Under the pieces are notes generated by a model. The model saw nothing but the letters and a program-made list of their open reading frames with translations. It was not told where the DNA came from and made no database searches. This document shows positions 1 to 16,142 of a stretch of DNA of 64,000 nt, in pieces. The stretch lies in contig NZ_AUFV01000002.1 of the NCBI RefSeq assembly GCF_000426685.1, positions 62,001-126,000 on the forward strand, in the 5' to 3' direction. How positions within the stretch are numbered: the stretch's first letter is position 1; every line of letters begins with the position of its first letter. The position numbers were made by a program, and so were the translations under genes. This DNA comes from Solimonas flava DSM 18980. Lineage in GTDB: Bacteria; Pseudomonadota; Gammaproteobacteria; Nevskiales; Nevskiaceae.

Positions 1-1446
1 ATCGCGATGCTCGCGGCCTGCGGCGGAGAGGACCGCTCCGGCGCCGAGACGACGCCGGCGGCGAGCCGGATCGTCAACACGCCGGCGCAGATCGCGCAGG
101 AGTCGGCGGACGACTACGACGACAACCGCAGCGGTCTCATCACTGGCAAGACCCTGAAGCGCTGGAAGGACAACTGGCTGCAGGAGCGCCCGGCCGGCAT
201 CAAGGGCAATCTGGTGATCTTCCAGATCGGCAAGGGCCCGGCCGGCGCCGAGTTCATCAAGGCCGACCACGAAACGGTCTTCTCCTACCAGGAGAACGCC
301 TGGCAGGAAGAACGCTCGAACGGCGTGATCAAGACGCCCGGCATGGTGCTCTCCGGGGCGCAGATCGATGCGCTGCTGCGCCGCTACGGCGTCAATCCCA
401 GCGAGGATCTCATCGTCTGCGCGCCGGGTACGGGCAGCGCGTCCAACGCGATGATCCAGGGTCGCTGCTGGTACACGCTGCGCTACTGGGGCGTCGCCGC
501 GGATCATCTCGCCGTCCTCAACGGCGGCAATCAGTATCTGGCTTCGAGTGAAGGCGGCTGGAGCGCCGCTGATTTCTCGACGGATGCGAGCCCGGTGACG
601 AACAAGTACGCCGGCAGCGTGCGCGACCTCAAGGAAGACAACACGGCGCTGCAGGCCACGCTCGAGGACGTCATCAACGTCCTGCCGCTGGAGGATGGCA
701 ACCGCAGCACGGACGGCATCTTCCTGTGGGATGCGCGCAGCCTGGATCAGTTCAGCGCCGGCGAGCTGCTGGAGAGCGGCGCGCCGCCCGAGGGCTACAA
801 CTACACCAGCAGCTTCCAGAACGGCGGCTCGCGGCAGGGCCATCCGCGCGGCGCGCTGCAGCTGCAGTACACCAACGTGCTGGTGAACGGCGGCGCGGAC
901 GGACGCTACAAGTCCAAGGCGGAGATCAAGGCCTACCTCGACGGCGAGGTCGACGCGGCGGGCAAAGGCTTCCGCGACGGCACGCTGCAGCCGGTCGGTT
1001 CCGGCAACGCCTACCAGCCGGGGGACGTGGTCTACACCTACTGCGAGACGGCGGTGCGCGCGGCGATCACGACCGTCGCTAGCGCCGTGATCCTCGGCCA
1101 TCCGACGCGCCTCTACGACGGCTCGATGATCGAGTGGAACTCGCTGTCGTACATCGCCGACAAGAACGGCAACTTCATCCTGCCGGCCAAGTCGGTGTGG
1201 CGGACCGACGTGCTGTCGTTCTTCAAGCCCGGTGTGCAGGCGCAGATCGCGCCGCGCAACGACGCCAGCGCGACGCCTTACGTGGTCGATGCCAGCGCCG
1301 AGCATGCGGACGAGGCCATCCTCGCCGACAAGGCCTACGCACGCGCCAACGATCCGGTCGACGACGGCGGCACCACCGGCGGGACGACCACCGGCGGCAG
1401 CACCACCGGCGGCACCACGGCGCCGCCGAATCCCTGCGGCGGCTAG
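1..1446 (+). CDS. Rhodanese-like lipoprotein, ExtH-like (5' end outside window)
   Basis: The reading frame is open to the left edge. A lipobox (LAAC) lies only four residues after the first visible ATG (position 7), so the real start and signal peptide are upstream and the lipidated Cys is at 19-21. The mature protein is about 475 residues. It has a rhodanese-like fold with a CETAVR active-site loop; the Cys codon is 1042-1044. It ends in a Gly/Thr-rich tail. Rhodaneses carry sulfur or selenium as a persulfide or perselenide on that Cys. The genes that follow (cytochromes, porin, YedE, TusA) match the make-up of the Geobacter ext loci for selenite/tellurite reduction, where ExtH is a rhodanese-like lipoprotein. 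The rhodanese and lipoprotein calls are firm; the chalcogen role is inferred from neighbours. Confidence 0.8.
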   Translation: MAMLAACGGEDRSGAETTPAASRIVNTPAQIAQESADDYDDNRSGLITGKTLKRWKDNWLQERPAGIKGNLVIFQIGKGPAGAEFIKADHETVFSYQENAWQEERSNGVIKTPGMVLSGAQIDALLRRYGVNPSEDLIVCAPGTGSASNAMIQGRCWYTLRYWGVAADHLAVLNGGNQYLASSEGGWSAADFSTDASPVTNKYAGSVRDLKEDNTALQATLEDVINVLPLEDGNRSTDGIFLWDARSLDQFSAGELLESGAPPEGYNYTSSFQNGGSRQGHPRGALQLQYTNVLVNGGADGRYKSKAEIKAYLDGEVDAAGKGFRDGTLQPVGSGNAYQPGDVVYTYCETAVRAAITTVASAVILGHPTRLYDGSMIEWNSLSYIADKNGNFILPAKSVWRTDVLSFFKPGVQAQIAPRNDASATPYVVDASAEHADEAILADKAYARANDPVDDGGTTGGTTTGGSTTGGTTAPPNPCGG

Positions 1447-1511
1447 CCGTTCCGTGCCGATGGGCGCGGCGTATGCCGCGCCCCTTCTTTCGCTCTCTCA
1501 TGGAGAATCCG

Positions 1512-1823
1512 ATGCGCCATGCCAGTCGCGCCGCGGCAGCGCTCTGCCTGTTCCTCGCCGGCCTGTCCGCCGCGCATGCCGACGAGCCGCGAGCGGCCGC
1601 CCGTGCGCCGGCCGCCGTCAAGCAGTACACCGTCAGCTTCGGTTCGCAGCCGCCGCCGCCCTCGTCGCGGCTCAAGTACCGCCAGGGCCCGGTCTGCATG
1701 TGCAGCGGCGGCCTGAGCGAGGCCGACATCAGCGCCGCGCAATCGCCGCTTCAAGCGTCCACCGCAGCCGCGGCGGATAGCGCTGAACCCACGCACGGTG
1801 CGGCCCGCGGAGAGACGCCATGA
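1512..1823 (+). CDS. Small secreted protein with Cys-X-Cys motif (ExtJ-like position)
   Basis: A 103-residue protein with a Sec signal peptide (cleavage near AHA/D, about residue 24). The only striking motif is GPVCMCSGGLSEADI in the middle, a Cys-X-Cys pair in a Gly-rich loop that could bind a metal or chalcogen. The C-terminus is low-complexity Ala-rich. GGAGA about 6 bases upstream supports the ATG at 1512 over an in-frame ATG at 1500. The stop overlaps the next start by 4 bases (ATGA), so translation is probably coupled to the triheme cytochrome. A small periplasmic protein sits at the same place in ext-type operons (ExtJ), but I could not confirm homology. Confidence 0.65.
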   Translation: MRHASRAAAALCLFLAGLSAAHADEPRAAARAPAAVKQYTVSFGSQPPPPSSRLKYRQGPVCMCSGGLSEADISAAQSPLQASTAAAADSAEPTHGAARGETP

Positions 1824-2338
1824 ACAAGCTTCGTGGTCTCGGCCGCCGTGCCGGCGCCTGGCTCGGGCGCGGCCTGCTGTTGTGGTTGCTGCTGCTGCTG
1901 GTCGGTGCCGGCGGCTGGATCTTCTCGACCGCGGGCGAGCCGCCGCGCGCGGCAGCGCCGGCCGCCGCCTGGGGCGACGAAGCGCTGCAGGCCTGGGGCG
2001 AAGACCTCGCGGCGCTGTCGCCGGTCGCGCCCGCCAATGCCTGCGGACTCGGCGCGTCCAGCTGCTTCAAGTGCCACAACGGCAAGCGCGCGCCGTCGCC
2101 GTCGCTCGACGCCAAGCTGCATCCCTGGCACGTCGACCACCAGGCGGTGAACTACTCCTGCGCCGGCTGCCATCAGGGCAATCCGCGCATCCTCAAGCAG
2201 GAAATCGCGCACGAGAAGCTGGTCGCCCGGCCGCTCGCCGCGCCCGAGAAAACCTGCGCGACCTGCCACAACCCGGCGCAGGTCGAGTCCTTTACCCGTC
2301 GTTATCAGCAGGTCCTGAACGGAGGCCCGCAGTCGTGA
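1820..2338 (+). CDS. Membrane-anchored triheme cytochrome c
   Basis: A 172-residue protein with one N-terminal membrane segment (about residues 18-36) and a periplasmic domain carrying three CXXCH haem sites: C82-H86, C114-H118 and C146-H150. Extra His residues around 101-107 could be distal ligands. It overlaps the upstream small gene (ATGA) and the downstream porin (GTGA) by 4 bases each, so it sits inside one translationally coupled operon. Its likely role is electron transfer from the inner membrane towards a periplasmic or outer-membrane reductase. The haem motifs are seen directly; the substrate is inferred from context. Confidence 0.85.
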   Translation: MNKLRGLGRRAGAWLGRGLLLWLLLLLVGAGGWIFSTAGEPPRAAAPAAAWGDEALQAWGEDLAALSPVAPANACGLGASSCFKCHNGKRAPSPSLDAKLHPWHVDHQAVNYSCAGCHQGNPRILKQEIAHEKLVARPLAAPEKTCATCHNPAQVESFTRRYQQVLNGGPQS

Positions 2339-3528
2339 ACATCCCGAGTACCCCGAAGCCGCCATCGAAGGCCGTCCCGCTGCCGCAGTGGGCGGTCAAG
2401 GCTTGCGTGCTGGGCGCCATGGCCTGGGCCGGCACGGCGCAGGCCGGCGTGACGATCAACGTCGACGACCAGCGCTATCTGACGATCGACTATTCGCTGC
2501 AGGCCTGGGCGCAGGCGAGCAGCTACACGTCGGCCACCGACGGCGGCAGCAGCACCGACTTCTTCCTGCGCCGCAACCGCCTGACGTTCAGCGGCCAGTA
2601 CAACGACCTCATCGGCTTCTACGCGCAGCTCGAAGCCGGCAACGAAGGCAAGGACGGCGACAATGACAAGTCGGTCTACTACCGCGACGCCTATGTGACG
2701 ATCGACTACGCCGACGGCGCGCGCTTTATCCTCGGGCGCTTCAAGAACACGTTCTCGCGCGAGAACCTGGAAGGCTGCCTGGAACCGCTGACGCTCGATC
2801 GCTCGCTGATGTCGTACACGCCCTTCGGCGGCACGCGCGACGACGGCATCGCGATCTGGGGCAATCTGGCCGACGCGGTGCTGCAGTACCGCGTGATGGT
2901 GGCCGACGGCCGCGAAGGCGACGAGGTTGCCAAGAAATCGCCGCGCGTCACGGCGCGCGTTCACTGGAGCGCCCTGGACCCCGAGTTCGACTACGGCTAT
3001 CGCGGCACGTATCTGGGCACGCGCAAGATTCTCACGATCGGCGCCGCCTACGACTACCAGCCGGACGTGGCCTACGCGAACTACGCGGCGCGCAGCGACG
3101 CCAAGGACTACAAGGCGTGGACCGTCGACGGCTTCTTCGAGTATCCGTTCGACTTCGGCACGGTGACGCTGTCGAGCGCCTATCTGCACTACGGCGTCGG
3201 CGATGCCATCAACCAGGCGCCGGACGCGAATCTGCCGAGCAACACCGAGCTGCACGCTTCCTACGTGAAGGGCGGCTATCTGTTCCCGCAGAAAATCGGC
3301 ATCGGCCGCCTGCAGATCTTCGCCCGCCACGACCGCTCGGACTACAACCTGAACAGCGGCTACCTCGACAATCAGCTCAACGGCGGCGGCCTCAACTACT
3401 ACCTCGACGGCCAGCAGCTGAAGCTGACGCTGGAGTACGACGACGTCGATTACCACCGCGCCGATCCATCGAGCCAGGCCGCGCAGGACAACTGGCAGCT
3501 GACGCTCGGCTTCCAGCTGATCCTCTGA
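2335..3528 (+). CDS. Outer-membrane porin, OprP/ExtI-like
   Basis: A 397-residue protein with a signal peptide ending at AQA/G (about residue 37), followed by alternating aromatic/polar beta-strand sequence and a C-terminal strand typical of 16-stranded porins of the phosphate-selective OprO/OprP superfamily. The start is GTG at 2335, preceded by AACGGAGG and overlapping the cytochrome stop. A porin between cytochromes and a rhodanese lipoprotein is the hallmark of ext-type selenite/tellurite operons (ExtI), where it is thought to let oxyanions or electron carriers cross the outer membrane. The porin fold is confident; substrate specificity is not readable from sequence. Confidence 0.8.
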   Translation: MNIPSTPKPPSKAVPLPQWAVKACVLGAMAWAGTAQAGVTINVDDQRYLTIDYSLQAWAQASSYTSATDGGSSTDFFLRRNRLTFSGQYNDLIGFYAQLEAGNEGKDGDNDKSVYYRDAYVTIDYADGARFILGRFKNTFSRENLEGCLEPLTLDRSLMSYTPFGGTRDDGIAIWGNLADAVLQYRVMVADGREGDEVAKKSPRVTARVHWSALDPEFDYGYRGTYLGTRKILTIGAAYDYQPDVAYANYAARSDAKDYKAWTVDGFFEYPFDFGTVTLSSAYLHYGVGDAINQAPDANLPSNTELHASYVKGGYLFPQKIGIGRLQIFARHDRSDYNLNSGYLDNQLNGGGLNYYLDGQQLKLTLEYDDVDYHRADPSSQAAQDNWQLTLGFQLIL

Positions 3529-3542
3529 GGAGCCGACGCGAT

Positions 3543-4979
3543 ATGGCTGTCTTCAGCGAATCCGGCGCGTGGTCGCCGGCCGGCGGGCGCGCGGGCCTGC
3601 TCAGCGCCGCGGGCATCGTCCTCGCCGTCGCGCTGGTCTCCGGCGTCTATCTGGCGCTGGACACGCGCTACGTCTACCTGCTGGTCTACGCCTGGTTCGG
3701 CGTCGCCTACGGACTGCTGCTGCAGTACGGCCGCTTCTGCATGGCGTCCGCGGTGCGCGACCTCTTCATGGTGCGCGTGCCGCGCATGGCGGTCGGCGTG
3801 ATCGTCGCGATCGTGCTGTACGCATTGATCGCCGCGATCGTGCACGTGGTCGGCGTCAACACCTTCGCGCCGCATCCGCTCGGCTGGCACGTGCTGATCG
3901 GCGGCGCGATCTTCGGCTTCGGCATGATCTTCACCGGCGGTTGCGCGTCGAGTTCGCTGTACAAGAGCGGCGAGGGCAACGTGGCGTCGATGCTGGTGCT
4001 GCTGGCGATCTCGGTGTCGCAGGCGCTGTTCGTCAGTGCCGGCAGCTGGAGCAACCGCGGGGTGCCGAAGGCCTGGGCCGAAGCTGCCGCCGCGCAGGAC
4101 ATGCCGGCCGCGCTCGGCATCACCGACGGCTGGTTCGACCAGTTCACCGCCGGCTATCTCTGGACGTTGCCGGCGGAAACCGTCGCGCAGGCGCTCGGCG
4201 TGCAGGGCGCGGTGGCCGGCGCCGTCGCCAATGCGCTGCTGACGGCGCTGCTGCCGGCGGCGGCGCTGCTGGTGCTGCTCTACGCGACGGCCTGGCGTAA
4301 GGGATACCTGCGCCGCGCCAAGCTCGCGCAGGCGCGGATCGGCGACCATCTGCGCGGTATCTGGGCGATGCTGACGGCCTCCAAGCGCACGGCGCTGGTC
4401 GGCCTCGGCCTGGGCGCGCTGGCGGGGCTGCAGATGTGGATCACCAGCGCGCTGCGCGACCACTACGGCATCTTCAATTTCGGCGAGATGCTGGCGCAGA
4501 TGGGCCACAGCGAAGGCCTGTCACTGCAGGACACGGTGTTCGATCCGGGCTACTGGTACATCACCACGCAGGAAGCGCAGTGGGCCGGCTGGGCGCTCGA
4601 CAAGCTGGGCCTGTCGATGCGCGACAATCTGTTCTTCGGCCTCGACAACGGCGTGCCCGCGCCTTGGCTCAACGCGCCGGGACTGATGTCGATCGGCATC
4701 ATCGCCGGCGCCGCCGTGATCGCCAATCTGAACGGCGAGTTCAAGTGGAAGCTGCCGAGCGCCGAGACCGCTGCGTTCGCGCTCGTTGGCGGCGCGCTGA
4801 TGGGGCTCGGCTCGCGCATCGGCATGGGCTGCAACATCGGCGCGTTCTTCGCGACCGTCACCAACGGCGATCCGAGCGGCTGGATCTTCTTCGCCGGCCT
4901 GGTGGCGGGCGGCTACGGCGGCGTGCGCGCATTCAAGTGGTGGATCGACCGCCGGCTCGCCGCCGCCGGTCCGGCCTGA
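3543..4979 (+). CDS. YeeE/YedE family transporter, duplicated domain
   Basis: A 478-residue polytopic inner-membrane protein with two YeeE/YedE repeats joined by a linker. The conserved family cysteines are visible: C66 in GRFCMAS, C134 in GGCASSSLY and C430 in GMGCNIGAFF. In the characterised thiosulfate transporter YeeE, equivalent cysteines relay the substrate through the membrane. YedE relatives are linked to selenium metabolism. The gene starts 14 bases after the porin and is followed 17 bases later by a TusA-like gene, the usual YedE/YedF pairing. Likely role: import of thiosulfate or a reduced sulfur/selenium species that is handed to the TusA protein. Confidence 0.85.
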   Translation: MAVFSESGAWSPAGGRAGLLSAAGIVLAVALVSGVYLALDTRYVYLLVYAWFGVAYGLLLQYGRFCMASAVRDLFMVRVPRMAVGVIVAIVLYALIAAIVHVVGVNTFAPHPLGWHVLIGGAIFGFGMIFTGGCASSSLYKSGEGNVASMLVLLAISVSQALFVSAGSWSNRGVPKAWAEAAAAQDMPAALGITDGWFDQFTAGYLWTLPAETVAQALGVQGAVAGAVANALLTALLPAAALLVLLYATAWRKGYLRRAKLAQARIGDHLRGIWAMLTASKRTALVGLGLGALAGLQMWITSALRDHYGIFNFGEMLAQMGHSEGLSLQDTVFDPGYWYITTQEAQWAGWALDKLGLSMRDNLFFGLDNGVPAPWLNAPGLMSIGIIAGAAVIANLNGEFKWKLPSAETAAFALVGGALMGLGSRIGMGCNIGAFFATVTNGDPSGWIFFAGLVAGGYGGVRAFKWWIDRRLAAAGPA

Positions 4980-4996
4980 ACATCGGAGTCATCGGC

Positions 4997-5248
4997 ATGG
5001 CCTACAAACTCGAACGCGTCGGCGACGGCGCCTATCTGCTCGACATCACCGGATACGGTTGCCCGCACGTCCAGGTCTACACCGACAAGGCGCTGCAGGA
5101 CCTCGCCAGCGGCGAGCGGCTGACGGTGCGTTTCGACAATCCGTCGTCCGGCGAATCGATCCTCTTCATGTGCGAAACCGAAGGGCACGAACTGGTCGGA
5201 CGCGACAAGCAGGGCGGGACCTTCACCTGGACGATCACCAAGGCCTGA
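4997..5248 (+). CDS. TusA/YedF-like sulfur (selenium) carrier protein
   Basis: An 83-residue protein of the TusA/SirA/YedF family. The first strand leads to YGCPHV, aligning with the canonical CPxP sulfur-carrier motif; the Cys is kept but the second Pro is replaced by Val. TusA proteins accept a persulfide on this Cys and pass it on. YedF relatives sit beside YedE transporters, as here. The start at 4997 gives the normal family length. The position between transporter and pentaheme cytochrome argues for a dedicated cytoplasmic acceptor for sulfur or selenium entering through the YedE protein, rather than the tRNA-thiolation TusA. Confidence 0.75.
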   Translation: MAYKLERVGDGAYLLDITGYGCPHVQVYTDKALQDLASGERLTVRFDNPSSGESILFMCETEGHELVGRDKQGGTFTWTITKA

Positions 5249-5262
5249 GCGCGCGCGGCCGC

Positions 5263-6495
5263 GTGCGTCAACGACTGCCGCTGCGGATCGCGGCCGCGGG
5301 GCTCGCCGCGGCGGCGGTCGCCGTGGCGGCGTGGTACGGGTTCGGACGCGACACCGACGCGACGTCGGCGTTCCTCGCGCAGCACTGGCAGCGCCCGCTG
5401 CCGGCGCAGGGCGATCCGCCGGCCGCGTACTCGGCGCTCGAGCGCTCGCTCGATCCCGCGGCCTGCGGCAGCTGCCATGTGCAGCAGCACGAGGACTGGC
5501 GACGCAGCCTGCACAGCCGCGCGATGGGGCCGGGCATCGAGTGGCAGTTCCATCTGATGACGCAGGCGCAGGCCAACCGCTGCATGGACTGCCACGCGCC
5601 GCTCGCCGAGCAGAAGGCGCTCGTCGCGCAGGCCTTCGCCTGGCCGCAGCGGCCGTCGTCGTCAGCGCCGGACCATGTGCCCGAGACGCTCGCGCACGAC
5701 GGACTGGTCTGCGCGGCCTGCCACGTGCGCGCGCACCAGCGCTACGGGCCGCCGCCGCGGTCGGGCGGTGCCGCGCAAGGCGCGCCGCACGGCGGCTTCG
5801 TCGCCGCCGCCGCGTTCGAGGACAGCCGCTTCTGCGCGGCCTGCCATCAGTTTCCGCCGGACGGCCCGGCCACCGCCGGCAAGCTGCACGAGGACACCTA
5901 CGCGCAGTGGCAGGCGAGCCGCTACGCCGCCGAGGGGCAGTCCTGCCAGAGCTGCCACATGCCGGATCGCCGGCACCAGTGGCAGGGCATCCACAGCAAG
6001 GACATGGTGCTCAAGGCGCTCGACGTGCGGCTCGAACTGGAGCCGGGCGCGGACGGTCGCTGGCGCGCGCAGGCCAGCCTGCGCAATGTCGGGGCCGGCC
6101 ACTTCTTTCCGACCTACATGGTCCCGGAGGTCACTGCGACGCTGATGCTGGTCGATGCGGACGGGCGGGAGATCCGCACGCTGGCGCAGCGCGTCATCGG
6201 CTGGCGCGTCGGCCTCGATCTCGATCGCGAGATCTACGACACGCGACTGCCGCCCGGCGCGGCGCTGCAGTTCGACGCACCGCTCGATGTCGCCGCGGAC
6301 GGCAGCGTCGTCGAATTGCGCGTCGACGTCGCGCCGCGCGAGCACTATGTGCGCCTCTTCGAACGCTCGCTCGCCCGCGATGGCGCGCGGCTCGACGCCG
6401 GGACCCTGAACCTGCTGCGCCGGGCGCGCGACGAAGCGGCGGCGACCCGCTACGAAGCCCTGCGCCTGCGCGCGCCGCTGCGCCGCGAGCGCTGA
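5263..6495 (+). CDS. Pentaheme cytochrome c, cytochrome c554-like
   Basis: A 410-residue exported protein with an N-terminal hydrophobic segment (about residues 7-25) that may act as an uncleaved anchor. Five CXXCH haem sites are visible: C68, C107, C150, C191 and C228. The C-terminal half (about 245-410) lacks haem motifs and is beta-rich; it may be a substrate or docking domain. The GTG start at 5263 lies 14 bases after the TusA stop and is the only start that keeps the N-terminal segment. It is the last gene of the operon; the next gene lies 89 bases downstream and is unrelated. Multihaem lipoproteins or anchored cytochromes with about five haems (ExtK, ExtL) occur in ext loci. The redox role is firm; the identity of the acceptor is inferred. 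Confidence 0.82.
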   Translation: MRQRLPLRIAAAGLAAAAVAVAAWYGFGRDTDATSAFLAQHWQRPLPAQGDPPAAYSALERSLDPAACGSCHVQQHEDWRRSLHSRAMGPGIEWQFHLMTQAQANRCMDCHAPLAEQKALVAQAFAWPQRPSSSAPDHVPETLAHDGLVCAACHVRAHQRYGPPPRSGGAAQGAPHGGFVAAAAFEDSRFCAACHQFPPDGPATAGKLHEDTYAQWQASRYAAEGQSCQSCHMPDRRHQWQGIHSKDMVLKALDVRLELEPGADGRWRAQASLRNVGAGHFFPTYMVPEVTATLMLVDADGREIRTLAQRVIGWRVGLDLDREIYDTRLPPGAALQFDAPLDVAADGSVVELRVDVAPREHYVRLFERSLARDGARLDAGTLNLLRRARDEAAATRYEALRLRAPLRRER

Positions 6496-6584: not shown

Positions 6585-8834
6585 ATGGCCAAAGCCGCGA
6601 CGGGGAAGAAGGGTTCACGCCAGCCGGTCGACGGGCGCCACGCCCGCGCGGTGCAGGCCCGGCAGGCGGAGCGCGCGCCGACCGCGTTGAACACGCGGCT
6701 GTTCGATGCGCGTCCGGACCGACTCGATTTCCGCGACCTGCCGTACCGCCCGCCGCTGCAATCGCTGCCGCCGCGCTTTCCGGACGATGCGATGGTCGCC
6801 AGGCTGTTGCCCGCCTACGTGCGCGCCGGCCTCGTGCTCGACCAAGGCCGCGACGGCGCCTGCACCGGCTTCGGCCTGGCCTGCGTCGCCAATTACCTGC
6901 TGTGGCGCCGCCACGTCGGCGCCGGGCTGCGCGCGCGCTTTGCGCCGGTCAGTCCGCGCATGTTCTACGAGCTGGCGCGCCGCTACGACGAGTGGCCTGG
7001 CGAGCGCTACGAAGGCTCCAGTTGCCGCGGCGCGCTGAAGGGCTGGCACAAGCACGGCATCTGCAGCGAGGCGCGCTGGCCGTACCGCTTCGACGCCGAG
7101 GGCAAACCGTTGTTCGTGCCGCCGCTCGACGGCTGGGAGACCGACGCCGCTTCGCGCACGCTCGGCGTCTATTACCGAGTCGAGCGCGCCTCGGTCGTCG
7201 ATCTGCAGGCGGCGATCGCCGAGATCGGCGCCGTCTACGTCTCGGCGCAGGTGCATGACGGCTGGGAGACGCTGGTCAGCGCGCGGCCGCGGGCGGCGCC
7301 GCGCCGGCATCGCGATCTGCCCGTGATCGCGCCGCCGAAGCAGCCGAACAAACTCGGCGGCCACGCCTTCGCGCTGGTCGGTTACAACGAGCGCGGCTTC
7401 GTCGTGCAGAACTCCTGGGGCCGCATCTGGGGCGCCGGCGGCTTCGGCCTGCTGCCGTATGAGGACTGGATCGCGCACGCGACCGATGCCTGGGCGGTCG
7501 CACTCGGCGTGCCGGTGCTGCCGTCGGACGCGCGGCTGGCCGGCGCGCGCTGGCCGGTGCCGGGTGGCCAGGCGCTCGGCGCGCTCGACCCGGCGACGCG
7601 CGCCGCGAACAATCCGCCGGACGATCCGTGGCCGGTCGACCATCCCTATGATTACGCGCCGTACGAGCCGTGGAGCACGGCACGCGCCTACGCGCACACG
7701 CTGGTCAGCGGCAACAACGGCCAGATCATGGTCCGCGACTTCACGCACGGCGTCGACGCCGGCGCCCAGGACTACGTCCGCGAGATCGCCTACGACTCGC
7801 CGTGGCGGCAGTTCGGCGCCGACCGCACGCGGGCGCCGGTGCTGGCGATCTACGCGCACGGCGGCCTCAACAGCGAGGACGACTCGATCCGCCGCATCCG
7901 CATGCTGGCGCCGGTGTTCGCTGCCAACGGCATCTATCCGCTGTTCCTGACCTGGCGCACCGGCCCCGGCGAGACGCTGGCCGACATCGTTCAGGACTGG
8001 GCGCGCAAGGCGCTCGGCGGCGAAGCGCCGGAACGCGCTGCCGGCGCGCTCGAAGTGCTCGGCGACGTGCGCGACCGCGCCGTCGAAGTGCTCGCGCGCC
8101 TGTTCGGCCGCGGCGTCTGGAGCGAGATGCGCGAGAACGCCGCGCTCGGCGCGCAGCCGGGGCGCGGCCTCGACCTGCTCGCGCAGAACCTGCTGCGCCT
8201 GTCGCAGCGTGCTGCCAAGGCCGGCCGGCCGCTGCGCCTGCATCTGATCGGCCATTCGGCCGGCTCAATCCTGCTCGGTCACCTGCTGTCACGGCTCAAC
8301 GAGCTGGGCGCGGCCGGTGCCGGCCTGACGGTGCAGAGCTGCAGCCTTTACGCCGCGGCCTGCTCGGTGCGCTTCGCCGTCGATCATTACCTGCCGGCCG
8401 CCGACAGCGGCCTGCTGCCGCTCGAACGCCTGTTCCTGCATCACCTTTCGGACCCGAACGAGAAGGCCGACGCGTTGCCGTCGCCGACACTGCAGGCCTA
8501 CGGCAAGTCGTTGCTGTACCTCGTCTCGCGGGCGCTCGACGACCAGCGCAAGATGCCGCTGCTCGGCATGGAGCGCGCGCTCGATTCGCGCTACGCGCGC
8601 AGCACCGACCACTGGGCCGAGACCGAGCTGGCGTCGATGCAGGCCTGGCAGGCGCGCTGGCCGGCCGGGCAGGGCGCGACCTGGCGCGATCCGACCGTGC
8701 TGACGACGCGGCGCGGCGACCGCATCCCGGCCACGCACGGCTCTTTCGACGCCAACCTCGAGGTCATCACCGAAACGCTGCAGCGCATCCGCGGCGAGCC
8801 GCTGGTGGCACCGCTGGAGTGGCTCGACTACTAG
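6585..8834 (+). CDS. Papain-like cysteine peptidase fused to alpha/beta hydrolase
   Basis: A 749-residue two-domain protein without a signal peptide. Residues about 45-300 form a C1A papain-like domain: oxyanion Q87, nucleophile C93 (GACTGFG), catalytic H260 (GGHAFALVGY) and N276 (NSWG). Residues about 410-680 form an alpha/beta hydrolase domain with an HGG oxyanion motif (425-427) and a GHSAG nucleophile elbow (S558). The linker between them (about 320-410) is Pro/Asp-rich. The first 45 residues are basic and Ala-rich. The ATG follows GGGAGAACGACG. Both catalytic centres look intact. It stands alone after the cytochrome operon. It could modify or degrade a peptide-linked substrate, but no specific function is known to me. 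Confidence 0.75.
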   Translation: MAKAATGKKGSRQPVDGRHARAVQARQAERAPTALNTRLFDARPDRLDFRDLPYRPPLQSLPPRFPDDAMVARLLPAYVRAGLVLDQGRDGACTGFGLACVANYLLWRRHVGAGLRARFAPVSPRMFYELARRYDEWPGERYEGSSCRGALKGWHKHGICSEARWPYRFDAEGKPLFVPPLDGWETDAASRTLGVYYRVERASVVDLQAAIAEIGAVYVSAQVHDGWETLVSARPRAAPRRHRDLPVIAPPKQPNKLGGHAFALVGYNERGFVVQNSWGRIWGAGGFGLLPYEDWIAHATDAWAVALGVPVLPSDARLAGARWPVPGGQALGALDPATRAANNPPDDPWPVDHPYDYAPYEPWSTARAYAHTLVSGNNGQIMVRDFTHGVDAGAQDYVREIAYDSPWRQFGADRTRAPVLAIYAHGGLNSEDDSIRRIRMLAPVFAANGIYPLFLTWRTGPGETLADIVQDWARKALGGEAPERAAGALEVLGDVRDRAVEVLARLFGRGVWSEMRENAALGAQPGRGLDLLAQNLLRLSQRAAKAGRPLRLHLIGHSAGSILLGHLLSRLNELGAAGAGLTVQSCSLYAAACSVRFAVDHYLPAADSGLLPLERLFLHHLSDPNEKADALPSPTLQAYGKSLLYLVSRALDDQRKMPLLGMERALDSRYARSTDHWAETELASMQAWQARWPAGQGATWRDPTVLTTRRGDRIPATHGSFDANLEVITETLQRIRGEPLVAPLEWLDY

Positions 8835-11327: not shown

Positions 11328-14300
11328 TTATTGCGACCCTAATTCTTTAGATAATTTCATTGAATCGAGGCGGCCGCCAACTTCAAAGAAGCCTTCAAAG
11401 CCCTTGGATCCATTGTTGCTGGTGGCTTCCATTTTTGGTCCGCCGCCAGCGTTCCCGCCGCTCTCTGGCGCACTTCCATCTGGCTCAATGTGTTTCTTTC
11501 CTCTGGTTTCGTCGTCCGTATCATGCCAGTGCGGCCCTCGCTCCTTGCCACCTTCCCGCCCTTCACGGTCCCACCGCCTGCGGATTTTCCCATCCCCGTC
11601 CTTCCATTGCCGATGTTTACCACCAGTCTTTTGGCCTGCGTCGGTCTCTGTCCATCCGTCTGGTGGAGTCCAATCGTCGGGATTGCCAGGATAATCAGGT
11701 TTATTATTATTCGGCGCTGTAGGGATACTTGGCGAATTTTCCTTAGTGCCCTCGTTCATAACCCAGGCAGTAATTCCGGTTCCGATTATTAATGCACCCT
11801 CTACGATACTCGGCAAAAATGGGACAATCGCAACCACGAACTTTCCGTTGGGATCAGCATACCGATACGGATTGGCATTTCCGTATAAGTATCGACTGAA
11901 TGAAAACGCACTGGCCTCGGTGAATCCGACCGGATCGTCCGACAGGAACCGCCCCACTGCCGGATCGTAGAACCGCGCCTGCATATACGTGAGGCCTGAT
12001 TCGGCGTCGAAAGCGTGGCCGGTGTAGCCGATTTTTTCGCCGACGCCGTTGAGCTTCTGCCCGTACGGGTCGTAATGCTCCTCCCACACGATATCGCCGC
12101 TTGCGCTGGTCGCCTTTCTGGGCGAGCCGAGCAAGTCCGGATGCAGGTACGTCGCTGTCGTCGTGCTGCCGTTGAGCTTCAGTTCGGCGATGACGGAATT
12201 GCCTAAGCGCAGATAGTCGGTCTTCGTCGTGCCTTGCTCGCTGTAAACCAACCCTCCGGAGAGGTCGTACAGGACGTATTCGACTGCGCCGCTCTTGGAA
12301 GTCTTGATCCGCTTGCCGTTGCCGTCGTAGCCGTAGCTGGCGATGCCGGTGATGCTCGTGATCTGGCCATCGGCGTTGAGCGTGAAGCTCTTGGTGCCGT
12401 CGCCTGTGACCTCGCCCTTGGCGTTGTAGCTGTAGCTGCGGCTTTGCGATCCGCTGACGCTGCTCAGGCGGTTGTTCGAGGCGTTGTAGCTGTATGTCAG
12501 CGCATTCGGGCCCGTTCTCGCTTGAATGTTGTTCAGCGGATCGTAGACGTAGCCATACGTGCCCCACAGGCCTGTCGCGGATTTTAGGCGGTGCAGGTTG
12601 TCATAGGCCAGCGTGGTGTTGTCGGCTTCATCGTCGTCATCGATGCTCAGCAGATCGCCGCCGTCGCTGTAGCTGTACTGGTAGCGCTGCACGACGGTTC
12701 CGCCATCCAGCGTGGTCTGGACCTGGGGCCACTGGCGGTTGTTGAGCGTTTGCAGGTAAGTCAGGCCGTTGCCGAGGGTGTAGTTCTTCGGCAGGCCGTT
12801 GGCGTAGTACTGAACGCCGGTCGCCCAGGTGCCAACCTGTGTTGGCCTCCCCCACGCGTCCGGAGCGTAAGCGATGGTCCGGGCCGGCGTTGTCAGGCTC
12901 TGGACATGAGCGAGGCTGTCGTACGTCGGGTTCAGGACGAAGGTCTTGCCATCGATGACCGCCTGCTCGGTCTCGATGAGGCCGCGCTTGTTGTAGCCAT
13001 ATGTCCACGTCGCCGTCGGGTTCGTGACGCTGGTGGGATTGCCGGCCGCGTCGTAGCCGAAGCTCACGTCGTCCGCAGTGCCTGGCTCGTCGTCCAGCGT
13101 CTTGCGACCGCGCGTGTCGTAGCCGAAGAGCGTGGCGCCCGCAGGCTGCGCCGTCACGCAACCCGTGCCGCTTTGCCCTTTGAGCTGCCATTTCAGCTGG
13201 CTCGCCGCGTCGTACCCCAGGATCACGCTGCCGGTTTCCGGCTCGGTCTTGCGGCAGAGGCGCTGATAGGCGTCGTAGGTCCACGTTTGCGTGGCACTGA
13301 CGTTGCCGCCGCTCCATATGCCGGATTGCGTCACGCCGATGATCTTGCCGTAGAGATCGCGCTCAATGACGGTGAGCTGGTTCTCCGGCGCTTCAATGCG
13401 AATCGGACGGCCGTAGGCGGGGCTGTCGAAGACCTGGTGGCCTACGGTCGTGATCTTGCCGTCCGCATCGGTCGTCTGCACCTTGGCCCCCGTCAGATAC
13501 GCCGTCTGGCTCAGGGTGACACCGTCCGTCGTCTGTCGCAGGGTCAGGCGTCCGAGTGCGTCGTAGATGCTGTTGGTGCCGGACGTTGCGGTGTAGGTGT
13601 CGGACGGATAGGAATCGAATAGGTGATGGCTTTCATGGTCGTAGGCCGTTCTCTTGTAGACCACCTTGCCCGTCGTCGTGTCCTTCTCTTCGACGAGGAC
13701 GGGACGCCAGCGAGCGTCGTAGTAGGTGCTGGCCTGCGAGCGGCCCGTCGTCGTGCGCGCACGCCAGGTTCCGACCGGCATGCCGAGTTCGGATGCCGCA
13801 AGGACGGTATATGTCGTGATGGTCGGCGCCCAGGCAACGGTATCGCTGCTCGGATAATCGGTACGCAGCAGCAAGCCCATGCTGTCGTATTGGTAGCTCG
13901 TCGTCGCTCCGTTCTCGTTGGTCAGGCTCGTGACTTCGCCGAAGTCTGAAACGACAGCGATCCTCGTACTGTTATCGGCAAAGGTGACGAGACGCGGGAT
14001 GTCGAACCGGTAGTTGCTGAGTGTCGTCGTGCGGTTCAGCCCATCCTTGAACGTGGAAAGCCGTCCCTGCGCATCCCAGGTGTAGCTCATGACCTTCAGG
14101 CCGAAGGCATAGCGGTCCTGAGGCAGGCCGTTGGCGTTGTAGGTCGTCGAATAGACCGTCTGTCCCAGTGTCTGATTGACCTTCCGTTTGACTTGGCCCA
14201 GTACCCATTTCGCCTGGTTGTAGGCGTCGTCATTGGCGAGCGTGACCTGCTCCTGGATCGGCGTCTGGCCGGGGATGCTGTTGAAGCGCTTGGTCTGCAC

Positions 14301-16142
14301 GGCGTTGCCGTAGCGGTCGAACGCCAGTGCTTGCCACGTGTACGTGTCGCCGTCTTGTTGGACGGCGCGTTGATTCAGCGGCGCGAGCTTAGTGAGCAGA
14401 TCGGTATTGAGGGTTGTCGTGAACAACGTGCCGATCTGCGCAGGGTAGGGGCCCGCGCTCGGACTGTTGTATAGCTGATTCGCGCTCCGCACCGTCGTTG
14501 CGTTAGCGGCCGAGACGGCAGAGCTGAGAAGCTGTCCCTCTGTGATGCCCCAGCGGTTGCTGAAGGTGTAGGTGGTCGAGCTGGAATCGGGTTCGGTGAC
14601 TTTCGTCCAGATCTCCGTCGGGCACGTTGTTGTCGAGCAATCCACCGCAAAACTCGCGTTGGGCGCGGAGTACTGATAAGTCCAGGTTTGCGCGGGTAGC
14701 GATGGACCCGCCAGAGAACGCGAAAGCAGTGTCGGTGTTCTGGAAGCGGCAGGAGAGAGTGCCCACGACCCCCCTGCTGCCGGCATCACGCTGACGCAAC
14801 GCAACGGTACGTACGATTTGCCGTGTGTCTGGGATGAAATCTGGAACGTGCCGACGACCCCAGATGGATGCGTGATAGTGACGGTGCCGCTACCAAAGTA
14901 GCTGTCTCCCGCGTCTTTGCATGCCGGGAAAGGAAGGTCGTTGCGATCTCCGGGAGAAGACGAAGCGACCGTTTCAAGATTGAAGATCCACAGGCGCGAG
15001 TCCGGCTGGGTCAAGGAACTTAGCCGTACCGGGGCGGCACTCTGGGTGGGATTCTGATACTGGTATGTCCATGCCCGCGGGGCGCCGCTTGAAGGCTGGG
15101 CGGTGATCTTGGCGATAAGGTCAGCATCGGAGCGCCACTCGATGCTGAGTGCGCGTCCGTCGCTGGAGCTAATCGCGGTCAGCTTGGCGCCGTTATAGGA
15201 GTAAGTGACATAGTTTCCGAAGCGGTCTTCGATGCGGCTCGGAAGCATCGAGGCTTCATACTGCGGAAGGCTCCAGGTATAGCCGGGTCTGGAGGCGGTA
15301 GCCGTCATTCGCGCATACCTGATGCTTGGCTTCCCCTTGAACACTAGCCGGTCCATCCAGTATTTCGTTCCGCTGGGATCAACGACCAAGAAGCCCTCGC
15401 CCGGCTGCCCATTGGAAGTGGAAGGCAGGCAAGCGATCATCCAGTGCTGTTTGGTGACGAGCGGAAAGCTGGTCGGAAGACCAGCACCTAGGCCTGTGGG
15501 AGCGAGCGTGTTCGAGGCGGTGCGCTTCAGCAACTGCTGTGCGCCCTGCCCAGGAACAATGAGGTTATAGCCGTTCCACCACCATTCGGTGGAAAACTCT
15601 AATGGCCCCCCACCGTACCAATTCTGTATGTATGCCGAGCTGTCCGGCATGGCCATTTGTGAGCATCGAGCGCCAGGGTTCCACGCGGCGCTTCCCATCG
15701 TGGTCGTGATGCGGGGAAGCTCCAGAACCCAGTCGCCGAATTCGCCATTGCGTTTTCGCCAAATAGTAACGCTTCTATCCAACCATCGCCCAGGCGAGAA
15801 CGAACGCGTAACGGCGACAGCCGGGCCGACGCCGGGTAACGAAACGTCAGTTTGCTCGAATGTAATTCCCCCCGAGTAGAGATCTATCTGCTCGCCGAAG
15901 GGAGTGTCGCTCAATGGCTGGAGCGTTCCTCCGGCCTTCATTCTCTGCTCGTAGAGCGACTCCGGACCAACGCCGTCATCGGATGTTGTGGAGCCTCCAC
16001 CACTGCTTCCGCCGCCGCCGTCCTCAGGGTCGCAGCCGGGGCAGAGGGCCGACACGGAGGGAGCCCATGCGGTAGCTGCCATGAACAGCAAAAGGGACGT
16101 AAGGAGACGGCCCATGGTGCGGGCGGCGAGTGTCTTGAGCAT
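11328..16142 (-). CDS. Rhs repeat polymorphic toxin
   Basis: A 1604-residue protein with an N-terminal signal sequence ending near VSA/LC (about residue 31), a Gly/Ser-rich stretch and a long series of YD repeats, closing with the Rhs core signature: GHAFDAESGLTYMQARFYDP, then GRFLSDDPVGF and a final YADPNGK near residue 1434. The last 170 residues are the variable tip: a hydrophobic helix (AIVPFLPSIVEGALIIGTG), a Pro-rich linker and a basic/His-rich block with GPHWHD that could be catalytic. Rhs cages shield and deliver toxins in bacterial competition. The ATG has AGGGGG upstream. No VgrG, PAAR or other T6SS gene is in the window, so export may use Sec. Tip GC is lower than core GC. Confidence 0.9.
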   Translation of the reverse strand: MLKTLAARTMGRLLTSLLLFMAATAWAPSVSALCPGCDPEDGGGGSSGGGSTTSDDGVGPESLYEQRMKAGGTLQPLSDTPFGEQIDLYSGGITFEQTDVSLPGVGPAVAVTRSFSPGRWLDRSVTIWRKRNGEFGDWVLELPRITTTMGSAAWNPGARCSQMAMPDSSAYIQNWYGGGPLEFSTEWWWNGYNLIVPGQGAQQLLKRTASNTLAPTGLGAGLPTSFPLVTKQHWMIACLPSTSNGQPGEGFLVVDPSGTKYWMDRLVFKGKPSIRYARMTATASRPGYTWSLPQYEASMLPSRIEDRFGNYVTYSYNGAKLTAISSSDGRALSIEWRSDADLIAKITAQPSSGAPRAWTYQYQNPTQSAAPVRLSSLTQPDSRLWIFNLETVASSSPGDRNDLPFPACKDAGDSYFGSGTVTITHPSGVVGTFQISSQTHGKSYVPLRCVSVMPAAGGSWALSPAASRTPTLLSRSLAGPSLPAQTWTYQYSAPNASFAVDCSTTTCPTEIWTKVTEPDSSSTTYTFSNRWGITEGQLLSSAVSAANATTVRSANQLYNSPSAGPYPAQIGTLFTTTLNTDLLTKLAPLNQRAVQQDGDTYTWQALAFDRYGNAVQTKRFNSIPGQTPIQEQVTLANDDAYNQAKWVLGQVKRKVNQTLGQTVYSTTYNANGLPQDRYAFGLKVMSYTWDAQGRLSTFKDGLNRTTTLSNYRFDIPRLVTFADNSTRIAVVSDFGEVTSLTNENGATTSYQYDSMGLLLRTDYPSSDTVAWAPTITTYTVLAASELGMPVGTWRARTTTGRSQASTYYDARWRPVLVEEKDTTTGKVVYKRTAYDHESHHLFDSYPSDTYTATSGTNSIYDALGRLTLRQTTDGVTLSQTAYLTGAKVQTTDADGKITTVGHQVFDSPAYGRPIRIEAPENQLTVIERDLYGKIIGVTQSGIWSGGNVSATQTWTYDAYQRLCRKTEPETGSVILGYDAASQLKWQLKGQSGTGCVTAQPAGATLFGYDTRGRKTLDDEPGTADDVSFGYDAAGNPTSVTNPTATWTYGYNKRGLIETEQAVIDGKTFVLNPTYDSLAHVQSLTTPARTIAYAPDAWGRPTQVGTWATGVQYYANGLPKNYTLGNGLTYLQTLNNRQWPQVQTTLDGGTVVQRYQYSYSDGGDLLSIDDDDEADNTTLAYDNLHRLKSATGLWGTYGYVYDPLNNIQARTGPNALTYSYNASNNRLSSVSGSQSRSYSYNAKGEVTGDGTKSFTLNADGQITSITGIASYGYDGNGKRIKTSKSGAVEYVLYDLSGGLVYSEQGTTKTDYLRLGNSVIAELKLNGSTTTATYLHPDLLGSPRKATSASGDIVWEEHYDPYGQKLNGVGEKIGYTGHAFDAESGLTYMQARFYDPAVGRFLSDDPVGFTEASAFSFSRYLYGNANPYRYADPNGKFVVAIVPFLPSIVEGALIIGTGITAWVMNEGTKENSPSIPTAPNNNKPDYPGNPDDWTPPDGWTETDAGQKTGGKHRQWKDGDGKIRRRWDREGREGGKERGPHWHDTDDETRGKKHIEPDGSAPESGGNAGGGPKMEATSNNGSKGFEGFFEVGGRLDSMKLSKELGSQ

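Follow-up and report, generated by a model that had tools for sequence, protein, structure and literature searches.

An ext-type operon joined to a YedE–TusA pair in Solimonas flava, a candidate line for sulfane-sulfur acquisition

Introduction

The ext clusters of Geobacter sulfurreducens, extHIJKL(MNOPQS), have been studied as putative conduits for electrons (PMC6148476), and ExtKL is included among listed selenoprotein families (PMC13188914). A compact seven-gene operon at the start of a 64,000-nucleotide stretch of Solimonas flava DSM 18980 (hereafter the window; contig NZ_AUFV01000002.1, positions 62,001 to 126,000, G000:C2:62001-126000 in our numbering) combines genes of this type with a YedE-family importer and a TusA-like sulfur carrier. 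On balance, and from sequence evidence, we lean toward reading this operon as a sulfane-sulfur acquisition line that would run from the outer membrane to the cytoplasm through ExtI/ExtH, YedE and TusA, with the cytochromes handling electrons.

YedE and TusA homologs are known from the yeeE-tusA-dsrEFH type II (YTD) clusters of Desulfobacterota and cable bacteria, whose cable-bacterial proteins have transfer activity in vitro; the dsrEFH-II type occurs in 985 genomes of 20 phyla (PMC13293266). Complete YTD clusters were found only in Desulfobacterota and Nitrospirota among surveyed sulfur-disproportionator genomes (PMC12998232). In Desulfurivibrio alkaliphilus, genes for YeeE, a rhodanese and TusA are among those transcribed and/or upregulated during sulfide oxidation with Fe(III) (MISO; PMC12545173).

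A seven-gene operon conserved within the family

The operon comprises seven tightly packed plus-strand genes (window positions 1 to 6495), which encode an ExtH-like rhodanese lipoprotein, a small exported CxC protein, a three-haem cytochrome, an ExtI porin, a YedE importer, a TusA-like carrier and a five-haem cytochrome. Gene 1 begins 60 bases before the window edge, and the spacing is 53 or 65 bases after gene 1, depending on the start chosen for gene 2, then two 4-base overlaps, then 14, 17 and 14 bases. An earlier note, made from the letters of the window, had described such a consecutive, closely spaced set with its start outside the window, and both points hold. The operon is real and conserved. 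The co-occurrence survey that the note put forward as a check recovers the identical seven genes in identical order in all four other family genomes with ExtI over the cut-off, namely Hydrocarboniphaga effusa AP103, Solimonas sp. BWSM_106, S. fluminis HR-BB and S. variicoloris, so the gene set is not a matter of chance. The seven proteins are 95–99% identical in the closest relative, S. variicoloris DSM 15731; in the other three, identity in ExtH, ExtI, YedE and the five-haem protein is 56–68%. Distribution is patchy, ExtI exceeding the cut-off in five of the 58 family genomes (own included), and among 398 sampled Pseudomonadota an ExtI match (E ≤ 1e-40) occurs only in the genome of the window. 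A weak ExtI-like match at G000:C4:159240-160127 (65 bits, below the cut-off) is one of many across family genomes and presumably marks an ordinary Porin_O_P protein.

The kinship with Geobacter ext differs from gene to gene. Gene 4 lies well above the cut-off (150 bits) of the curated porin_ExtI model. For gene 1 the best curated match is NF040901 ExtH (8e-30, 104 bits, cut-off 200), aligned over most of its length, and for gene 7 it is NF040886 ExtKL (1.9e-15, 56 bits, cut-off 250); despite its score, gene 1 is taken as kin to ExtH because of synteny and a shared tail cysteine. With two of the three scores under the curated cut-offs and no selenocysteine (Sec), the operon is not a full ExtHIJKL member. 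Gene 2 has the size and rough place of ExtJ and no NCBIfam match. A profile of the CxC protein has matches in 44 of the 46 Pseudomonadota loci, the remaining two being cut by contig ends, and in none of 20 loci of Geobacter, Nitrospirota or Vicinamibacteria type, so that no sequence match between gene 2 and ExtJ was found. The match to Geobacter ext that the earlier note saw in genes 1, 2 and 4 thus stands for the first (ExtH) and the last (ExtI), lacks a sequence match for gene 2 and extends to gene 7; of the Ext profiles it proposed to search, ExtI is over its cut-off, ExtH and ExtKL are related below theirs and ExtJ gives no match.

A porin with multihaem cytochromes could also form a conduit that delivers electrons to minerals outside the cell, the putative role in which the Geobacter clusters have been studied. 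The ExtI barrel of 397 residues appears small for a conduit, no haem protein here has an evident surface role, and we consider this option very improbable; mineral reduction was set aside on the small barrel and the published Geobacter phenotype.

Pairing with YedE and TusA across Pseudomonadota

A single scan with the ExtI alignment over one genome per species yielded 66 loci. These were split into 46 Pseudomonadota loci (ExtI identity at least 52% in the best segment) and 20 Geobacter/Nitrospirota/Vicinamibacteria-like loci (38–43%). The former come from 45 genomes, L103 and L078 being contigs of one metagenome-assembled genome (MAG), or 46 genomes with the window. Wherever the contig of a Pseudomonadota locus extends far enough, which it does in 41, YedE and TusA genes adjoin the ext genes; the five others (L064, L065, L070, L078 and L079) are cut before YedE. 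The junction with a YedE–TusA pair, which the earlier note called unusual, is therefore the rule in Pseudomonadota. Neither gene lies in any of the 20 other loci within up to 10 kb of DNA on each side (full in 12, less in eight), and any PF04143 match at all occurs in seven of 18 genomes of these types.

Two architectures can be distinguished. Type A (36 loci reaching YedE and five cut) has the order tusA2, yedE, tusA, two or three small genes, extH, five-haem cytochrome, CxC protein, three-haem cytochrome and extI, and ends with a histidine kinase and a sigma-54-type response regulator; strict sigma-54 sites, sought on account of this regulator domain, lie near operon genes in three of the 46 loci. 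The yedE block is on the opposite strand in five loci (L051, L053, L061, L062 and L067). The compact form, type B, lacks both the small genes and the two-component pair and comprises the window locus (L003), L038, L045, L056, L075 and L074 of Rubrivivax gelatinosus. Type B is a single clade in the YedE tree, supported at 100/98, but not in the five-haem tree, where long branches meet and L074 falls elsewhere. ExtI, YedE, ExtH and the five-haem protein co-diverge over 36 loci and the window (Mantel r 0.66–0.92, reached in 0 of 999 permutations), a pattern expected of genes that function together, although in these tests without species control a common species history could by itself account for it.

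The first two small genes of type A are present in 36 of 36 loci and the third in 25. They match no Pfam or NCBIfam model, and a PDB sequence search with the first returned unrelated proteins at best (E 0.06–0.11). A profile of the first gene has a single match in each of two Nitrospirota genomes, both times on the strand of a YedE gene that lies 2.1 kb away in one and 3.2 kb away in the other; it has no match in the window genome or in that of L094. Their place and size are those of the small genes in the YTD cluster (PMC13293266). It is well based to call them YTD-like, and they are likely to be DsrEFH-II proteins, as judged from gene order and relatives. The first looked 'DsrE-like' by eye, which the Pfam, NCBIfam and PDB sequence searches did not bear out, and the relatives beside Nitrospirota YedE genes are what backs the YTD link. 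The three small conserved proteins (L063:5297-6060 and equivalents in 36 type A loci) include, in the first, invariant cysteines and a CFLTDTGV motif. As the window operon lacks these genes, doubt over their identity leaves the odds of the acquisition reading unchanged. One DsrE-family gene lies elsewhere in the window genome and one in that of R. gelatinosus; the four remaining Nevskiaceae genomes have no such gene.

Sulfur-oxidation genes accompany the full cassette

DsrA (E ≤ 1e-40) is encoded in 37 of 40 type A genomes, over the cut-off in 33, compared with 52 of 398 sampled Pseudomonadota (Fisher p 1e-25, a value that treats related genomes as independent, which they are not). A strong SoxB match, for which no background was run, is found in 35 of the 40 (32 over the cut-off, three contig-cut). 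Two separate long DsrA matches over the cut-off are present in type A genomes G458, G460, G461, G463, G464, G466, G476 and G485, those of G464 on two short contigs. Sulfur-oxidation genes thus accompany the full cassette, and because that cassette occurs mostly in genomes with both DsrA and SoxB, sulfur acquisition or oxidation is favoured over respiratory oxyanion reduction; the scheme of the earlier note, in which the cytochromes reduce a chalcogen oxyanion, loses ground accordingly. That note had counted a cassette found mainly in a characterised pathway, such as thiosulfate oxidation, against its proposal, and the outcome lies halfway, as the cassette goes with sulfur-oxidation genes, but as an uncharacterised part.

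The pairing of SoxB with DsrA, seen in most type A genomes, is a set that accompanies stored sulfur. Sulfane sulfur made in the periplasm might therefore be handed outward through ExtH, deposited as extracellular sulfur and later fetched back, with the same parts and carriers as for import. Solimonas is not known to deposit sulfur. Moreover, the YedE–TusA pairs characterised to date import (PMC11582611, PMC11073785), and we regard an export line as quite improbable.

For the compact operon, an assimilatory or clearing role can also be considered, in which a TsuA/TsuB-like pair, equipped with a porin and a surface rhodanese of its own, would supply thiosulfate or polysulfide sulfur for cysteine synthesis or tRNA thiolation. 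The compact-type genomes, without DsrA and without SoxB over the cut-off, suit such a role, and so does the match of YedE to TsuA structures. Two multihaem cytochromes would nonetheless be superfluous for assimilation, and the occurrence of ExtI in so few family genomes fits it poorly; this role is rather unlikely in our judgement.

The ExtH rhodanese and its terminal cysteine

Gene 1 encodes a lipoprotein with the lipobox LAAC, a rhodanese active-site Cys in the loop CETAVR and a Gly/Thr-rich tail ending in PPNPCGG. A fold search retrieves thiosulfate sulfurtransferases (best E 7.5e-12), pointing to a tandem rhodanese core; in the model of the window copy the core is confident, and residues 451–479, including the tail Cys, are predicted to be disordered (pLDDT < 50). 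A Cys is among the last four residues in 55 of 57 ExtH proteins, a set that spans Solimonas, Geobacter and Vicinamibacteria (60 proteins less L080, L068 and L103, which have a broken or wrong frame; for the choice of starts L064 and L100 were also left out, leaving 55). Pseudomonadota proteins end in NPCGG or NPCG, one of them in NGCG, and elsewhere Cys is the final residue, as in GGGGC. The linker before it is variable in sequence and length, an ADKAY-like motif being followed by 18–35 residues up to the C-terminus (measured in 46 of 57). By comparison, such a Cys occurs in 67 of 955 other predicted open reading frames (ORFs) of the loci, a rough control from a simple ORF predictor, and in one of ten non-ExtH ORFs whose end is likewise rich in Gly/Ser. 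An alignment of 40 sequences, Geobacter-type proteins among them, has the lipobox and active-site Cys in every sequence and the tail Cys in almost every one (alignments A8 and A9 hold 40 and 23 of the available sequences). In the Nitrospirota ExtH proteins L082 and L091, a tail Cys lies 14–18 residues from the end, preceding rather than following the Gly-rich stretch.

SoxY binds sulfur on the Cys of its terminal GGCGG (PMC6067878), and a work cited in that paper refers in its title to a peptide swinging arm. The variable linker with terminal Cys of ExtH appears to be a newly noticed feature that recalls this sulfur-binding terminus; a literature search, with most subscription papers lying outside its reach, found no publication noting such an arm in ExtH.

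The importer and its carrier

YedE matches the TsuA structures 6leo and 8k1r, and in the alignment to 6leo its Cys66, Cys134 and Cys430 fall on three cysteines of TsuA. The three conserved cysteines are essential in SoxT1B (PMC11582611). They are retained in 39 of 41 relatives, the other two being cut by contig starts. Among curated TsuA/YedE models the best is NF033796 (127 bits, under the cut-off of 350). A second, weak PF04143 match lies at G000:C2:252187-252369 within a 1048-aa open frame. The TusA partner carries the motif CPHP in 37 of 41 loci and CPHV in the window and four Solimonas/Hydrocarboniphaga loci; CPHV, being confined to this group, was discarded as a mark of the whole family.

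The cytochromes and the selenium question

Relatives of the three-haem cytochrome are found in 44 of the 46 Pseudomonadota loci, the other two being cut. The five-haem protein of gene 7 matches MccSep, a solved multihaem selenoprotein (PDB 9wt8, 3.4e-6), for which the literature search found no dedicated paper. The sole fold match at E ≤ 0.001 is 5ze8, the penta-haem c552 of Thermochromatium tepidum (1.1e-10; model pLDDT 78), and a PHC family uniting ExtKL, cable-bacterial cytochromes and this c552 has been proposed (PMC11976967). Unlike 5ze8, proteins of the gene 7 type have an N-terminal helix or lipobox and a place in an operon of this kind. Among type A proteins with a readable start, 25 of 37 have a standard lipobox, six a looser SGC/AGC one by eye and six none, so those with a lipobox would sit on a membrane, perhaps beside ExtH; the type B protein has a plain N-terminal helix.

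The Sec of MccSep aligns to Tyr285 of gene 7, and Tyr stands there in all 44 Pseudomonadota relatives with a match. Gene 7 can thus be regarded, from its sequence, as a distant ExtKL/MccSep relative without selenocysteine. In seven Geobacter-type loci matched by gene 7, the frame stops after 323–330 codons, which is consistent with the published reading of a Sec (TGA) codon in ExtKL. The Geobacter-type ExtK proteins (L081, L084, L087, L089, L090, L092 and L099) contain two neighbouring cysteines, PTQCCTS, which are missing from the Pseudomonadota five-haem proteins compared.

At the genome level, SelD is found in 33 of 40 type A and one of six type B genomes, and SelB over the cut-off in 14 of 40 and one of six (of the Geobacter/Nitrospirota/Vicinamibacteria-type genomes, five of 18 entered the DsrA, SoxB, SelD and SelB searches, and all 18 the PF04143 search). 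Selenium use is common, though not general, in type A genomes and absent from the window genome, where SelD was not found and no SelB match is over the cut-off. Selenium use in S. flava, an option in the earlier note, is unlikely given the missing SelD and the Tyr at the Sec site, and was rejected.

According to the NCBIfam names, the operon would serve selenite/tellurite reduction, with cytochromes reducing the oxyanion in the periplasm and ExtI admitting it. The ExtI score, the impaired selenite and tellurite reduction of the Geobacter extI deletion strain (PMC5877670) and the standing of ExtKL as a selenoprotein family speak for it. It is weakened by the site at which all 44 relatives have neither Sec nor Cys and by the built-in sulfur importer, TusA and, often, YTD-like genes; the absence of SelD from five of six compact-type genomes speaks against SelD-dependent use, not against detoxification. 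Overall, we consider selenite/tellurite reduction unlikely.

Gene coordinates and neighborhood

The seven genes and one hairpin are located in Table 1. The hairpin may be an attenuator or an mRNA end, as judged from sequence, and extH may be more abundant than the downstream genes; nine terminator-like sites were found in the region against 2.4 expected. A promoter scan found no sigma-70 promoter upstream of the operon. Gene 1 starts 200 bases after a PfkB/cytidylyltransferase gene (rfaE/hldE-like), which with an aminotransferase gene makes up the two upstream neighbors. Directly after the operon, window positions 6585-8834 encode a 749-aa protein with a papain-family peptidase domain (PF00112) and no sign of operon membership. 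Further on, the minus strand (11328-16142) encodes a 1604-aa protein with YD/RHS-like repeats by eye, which could be a gene of the polymorphic-toxin type.

Table 1. Features of the operon region in window coordinates (window position = L003 position - 8000, L003 being the locus including upstream DNA)
Feature	Position	Strand	Evidence
Gene 1, ExtH-like tandem-domain rhodanese lipoprotein, 501 aa	L003:7941-9446 = window -59 to 1446	+	NF040901, fold search
G+C hairpin, 9 pairs, then T-rich stretch, between genes 1 and 2	1462..1483	+	terminator-like-site scan
Gene 2, small exported CxC protein, motif RLKYR..GPVCMC..GL.E.DI	1500 (or 1512)-1823	+	profile in relatives
Gene 3, three-haem c-type cytochrome, N-terminal hydrophobic segment	1820-2338	+	CFKCH, CAGCH, CATCH; Cytochrome_C7 1e-5
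Gene 4, ExtI porin (Porin_O_P barrel), 397 aa	2335-3528	+	NF040900 349 bits; PF07396 1.5e-13
Gene 5, YedE/YeeE-family importer	3543-4979	+	PF04143 2.8e-43; alignment to 6leo
Gene 6, TusA-like sulfur carrier, CPHV replacing CPxP	4997-5248	+	PF01206 2.2e-15
Gene 7, five-haem cytochrome, beta-rich C-terminal domain, GTG start, five CxxCH	5263-6495	+	NF040886, 9wt8, 5ze8

Discussion

The operon shares with Geobacter ext an ExtI over the cut-off, an ExtH-like lipoprotein whose terminal Cys arm is also present in the Geobacter kin, and an ExtKL-like five-haem protein. It differs in having no Sec, in the CxC protein and three-haem cytochrome, and in the added YedE–TusA pair. That pair is what it has in common with YTD clusters, and in type A the small genes occupy the same place; the compact form, in which the dsrE-like and two further small genes are absent (L003 and all compact loci), is not a YTD-cluster member. 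The 36 YTD-like Pseudomonadota loci fit the wider dsrEFH-II distribution and add ext genes to it. The word 'porin' does not occur in the available text of the YTD papers checked for it. Like the TsuA–TsuB and SoxT importers, YedE has three conserved cysteines and an adjoining TusA-like partner; unlike them, it has 478 residues rather than about 330–350 (PMC11582611), is joined to outer-membrane and haem components, and is partnered by a TusA with CPHV.

The sulfur acquisition that we favour may proceed as follows. ExtI would admit sulfur anions (polysulfide, thiosulfate or similar) across the outer membrane, and ExtH, as an outer-membrane lipoprotein, would bind the sulfur in persulfide form at its active-site Cys before passing it to the tail Cys on the long flexible arm, in the manner of SoxY. 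The arm could then offer this sulfur to YedE or the CxC protein within the periplasm. The five-haem and three-haem cytochromes would exchange the electrons of S–S bond making or breaking and be linked to the respiratory chain. YedE would carry the sulfur across the inner membrane past its three cysteines, with TusA as the receiver. Relatives of the Thiobacillus type would then oxidise it, first by way of the small YTD-like (probably DsrEFH-II) proteins and next through the Dsr pathway; in Solimonas the final acceptor may be another. We infer the substrate, the inward direction, the role of the arm and the identity of the small genes from gene content, order, conservation, cysteines, lipobox, predicted tail disorder and genome context. 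The proposal that reduced sulfur moves from outside to the cytoplasm through a YedE/TusA import pair, already part of the earlier note, is the likely theme, with an ext-type operon joined to the pair.

In its working, the cassette, made up of ext parts, would resemble a YTD importer to which a carrier system of the Sox type has been joined. SoxAX is a haem protein that acts with the SoxYZ carrier, and here too haem proteins stand beside a sulfur carrier with a Cys at a Gly-rich C-terminus. The carrier differs in being a rhodanese-fold lipoprotein with the tail NPCGG, not GGCGG, so the resemblance is one of mechanism only, with no sequence relation seen.

Several observations weigh against sulfur acquisition. 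The type B genomes have DsrA in none of six and SoxB over the cut-off in none of six, and their loci no small YTD-like genes, which leaves the compact form with no evident acceptor after TusA, itself altered from CPxP to CPHV in the window and four relatives; no sulfur gene adjoins the window operon among the two upstream genes and one downstream gene inspected. Two Nitrospirota ExtH proteins (L082 and L091) lack the terminal Cys, and L053, from a Rubrivivax MAG, has YedE, TusA, the cytochromes and ExtI with no ExtH match at the expected place. The DsrA/SoxB association stems partly from shared ancestry, and the loci were found through two peptide patterns taken from four close relatives, so the sample is biased to near kin and rich in MAGs. 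The DsrEFH-II naming draws on gene order and Nitrospirota matches, as no Pfam or NCBIfam model fits. Geobacter ExtI, the one relative for which a phenotype has been determined, acts on selenite and tellurite reduction (PMC5877670), and the case for acquisition is built from sequence and predicted models.

A broader idea, possible but doubtful at present, is that the cassette is an outer-membrane machine of neutrophilic sulfur oxidisers that would activate and import extracellular zero-valent sulfur, with a SoxY-like rhodanese arm, SoxAX-like cytochromes and a YedE-TusA-DsrEFH-II-like second entry to Dsr; the compact Solimonas form would then be a stripped-down version kept by heterotrophs.

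The locus joins Geobacter ext loci with YTD clusters, two literatures that the cited passages leave unconnected, and makes one sharp prediction, that of the ExtH terminal Cys. In Pseudomonadota, automatic names pointing to a selenite/tellurite reduction operon are probably misleading, and the seven genes of S. flava offer a testable, compact and knock-out-ready candidate for bacterial uptake of outside sulfur.

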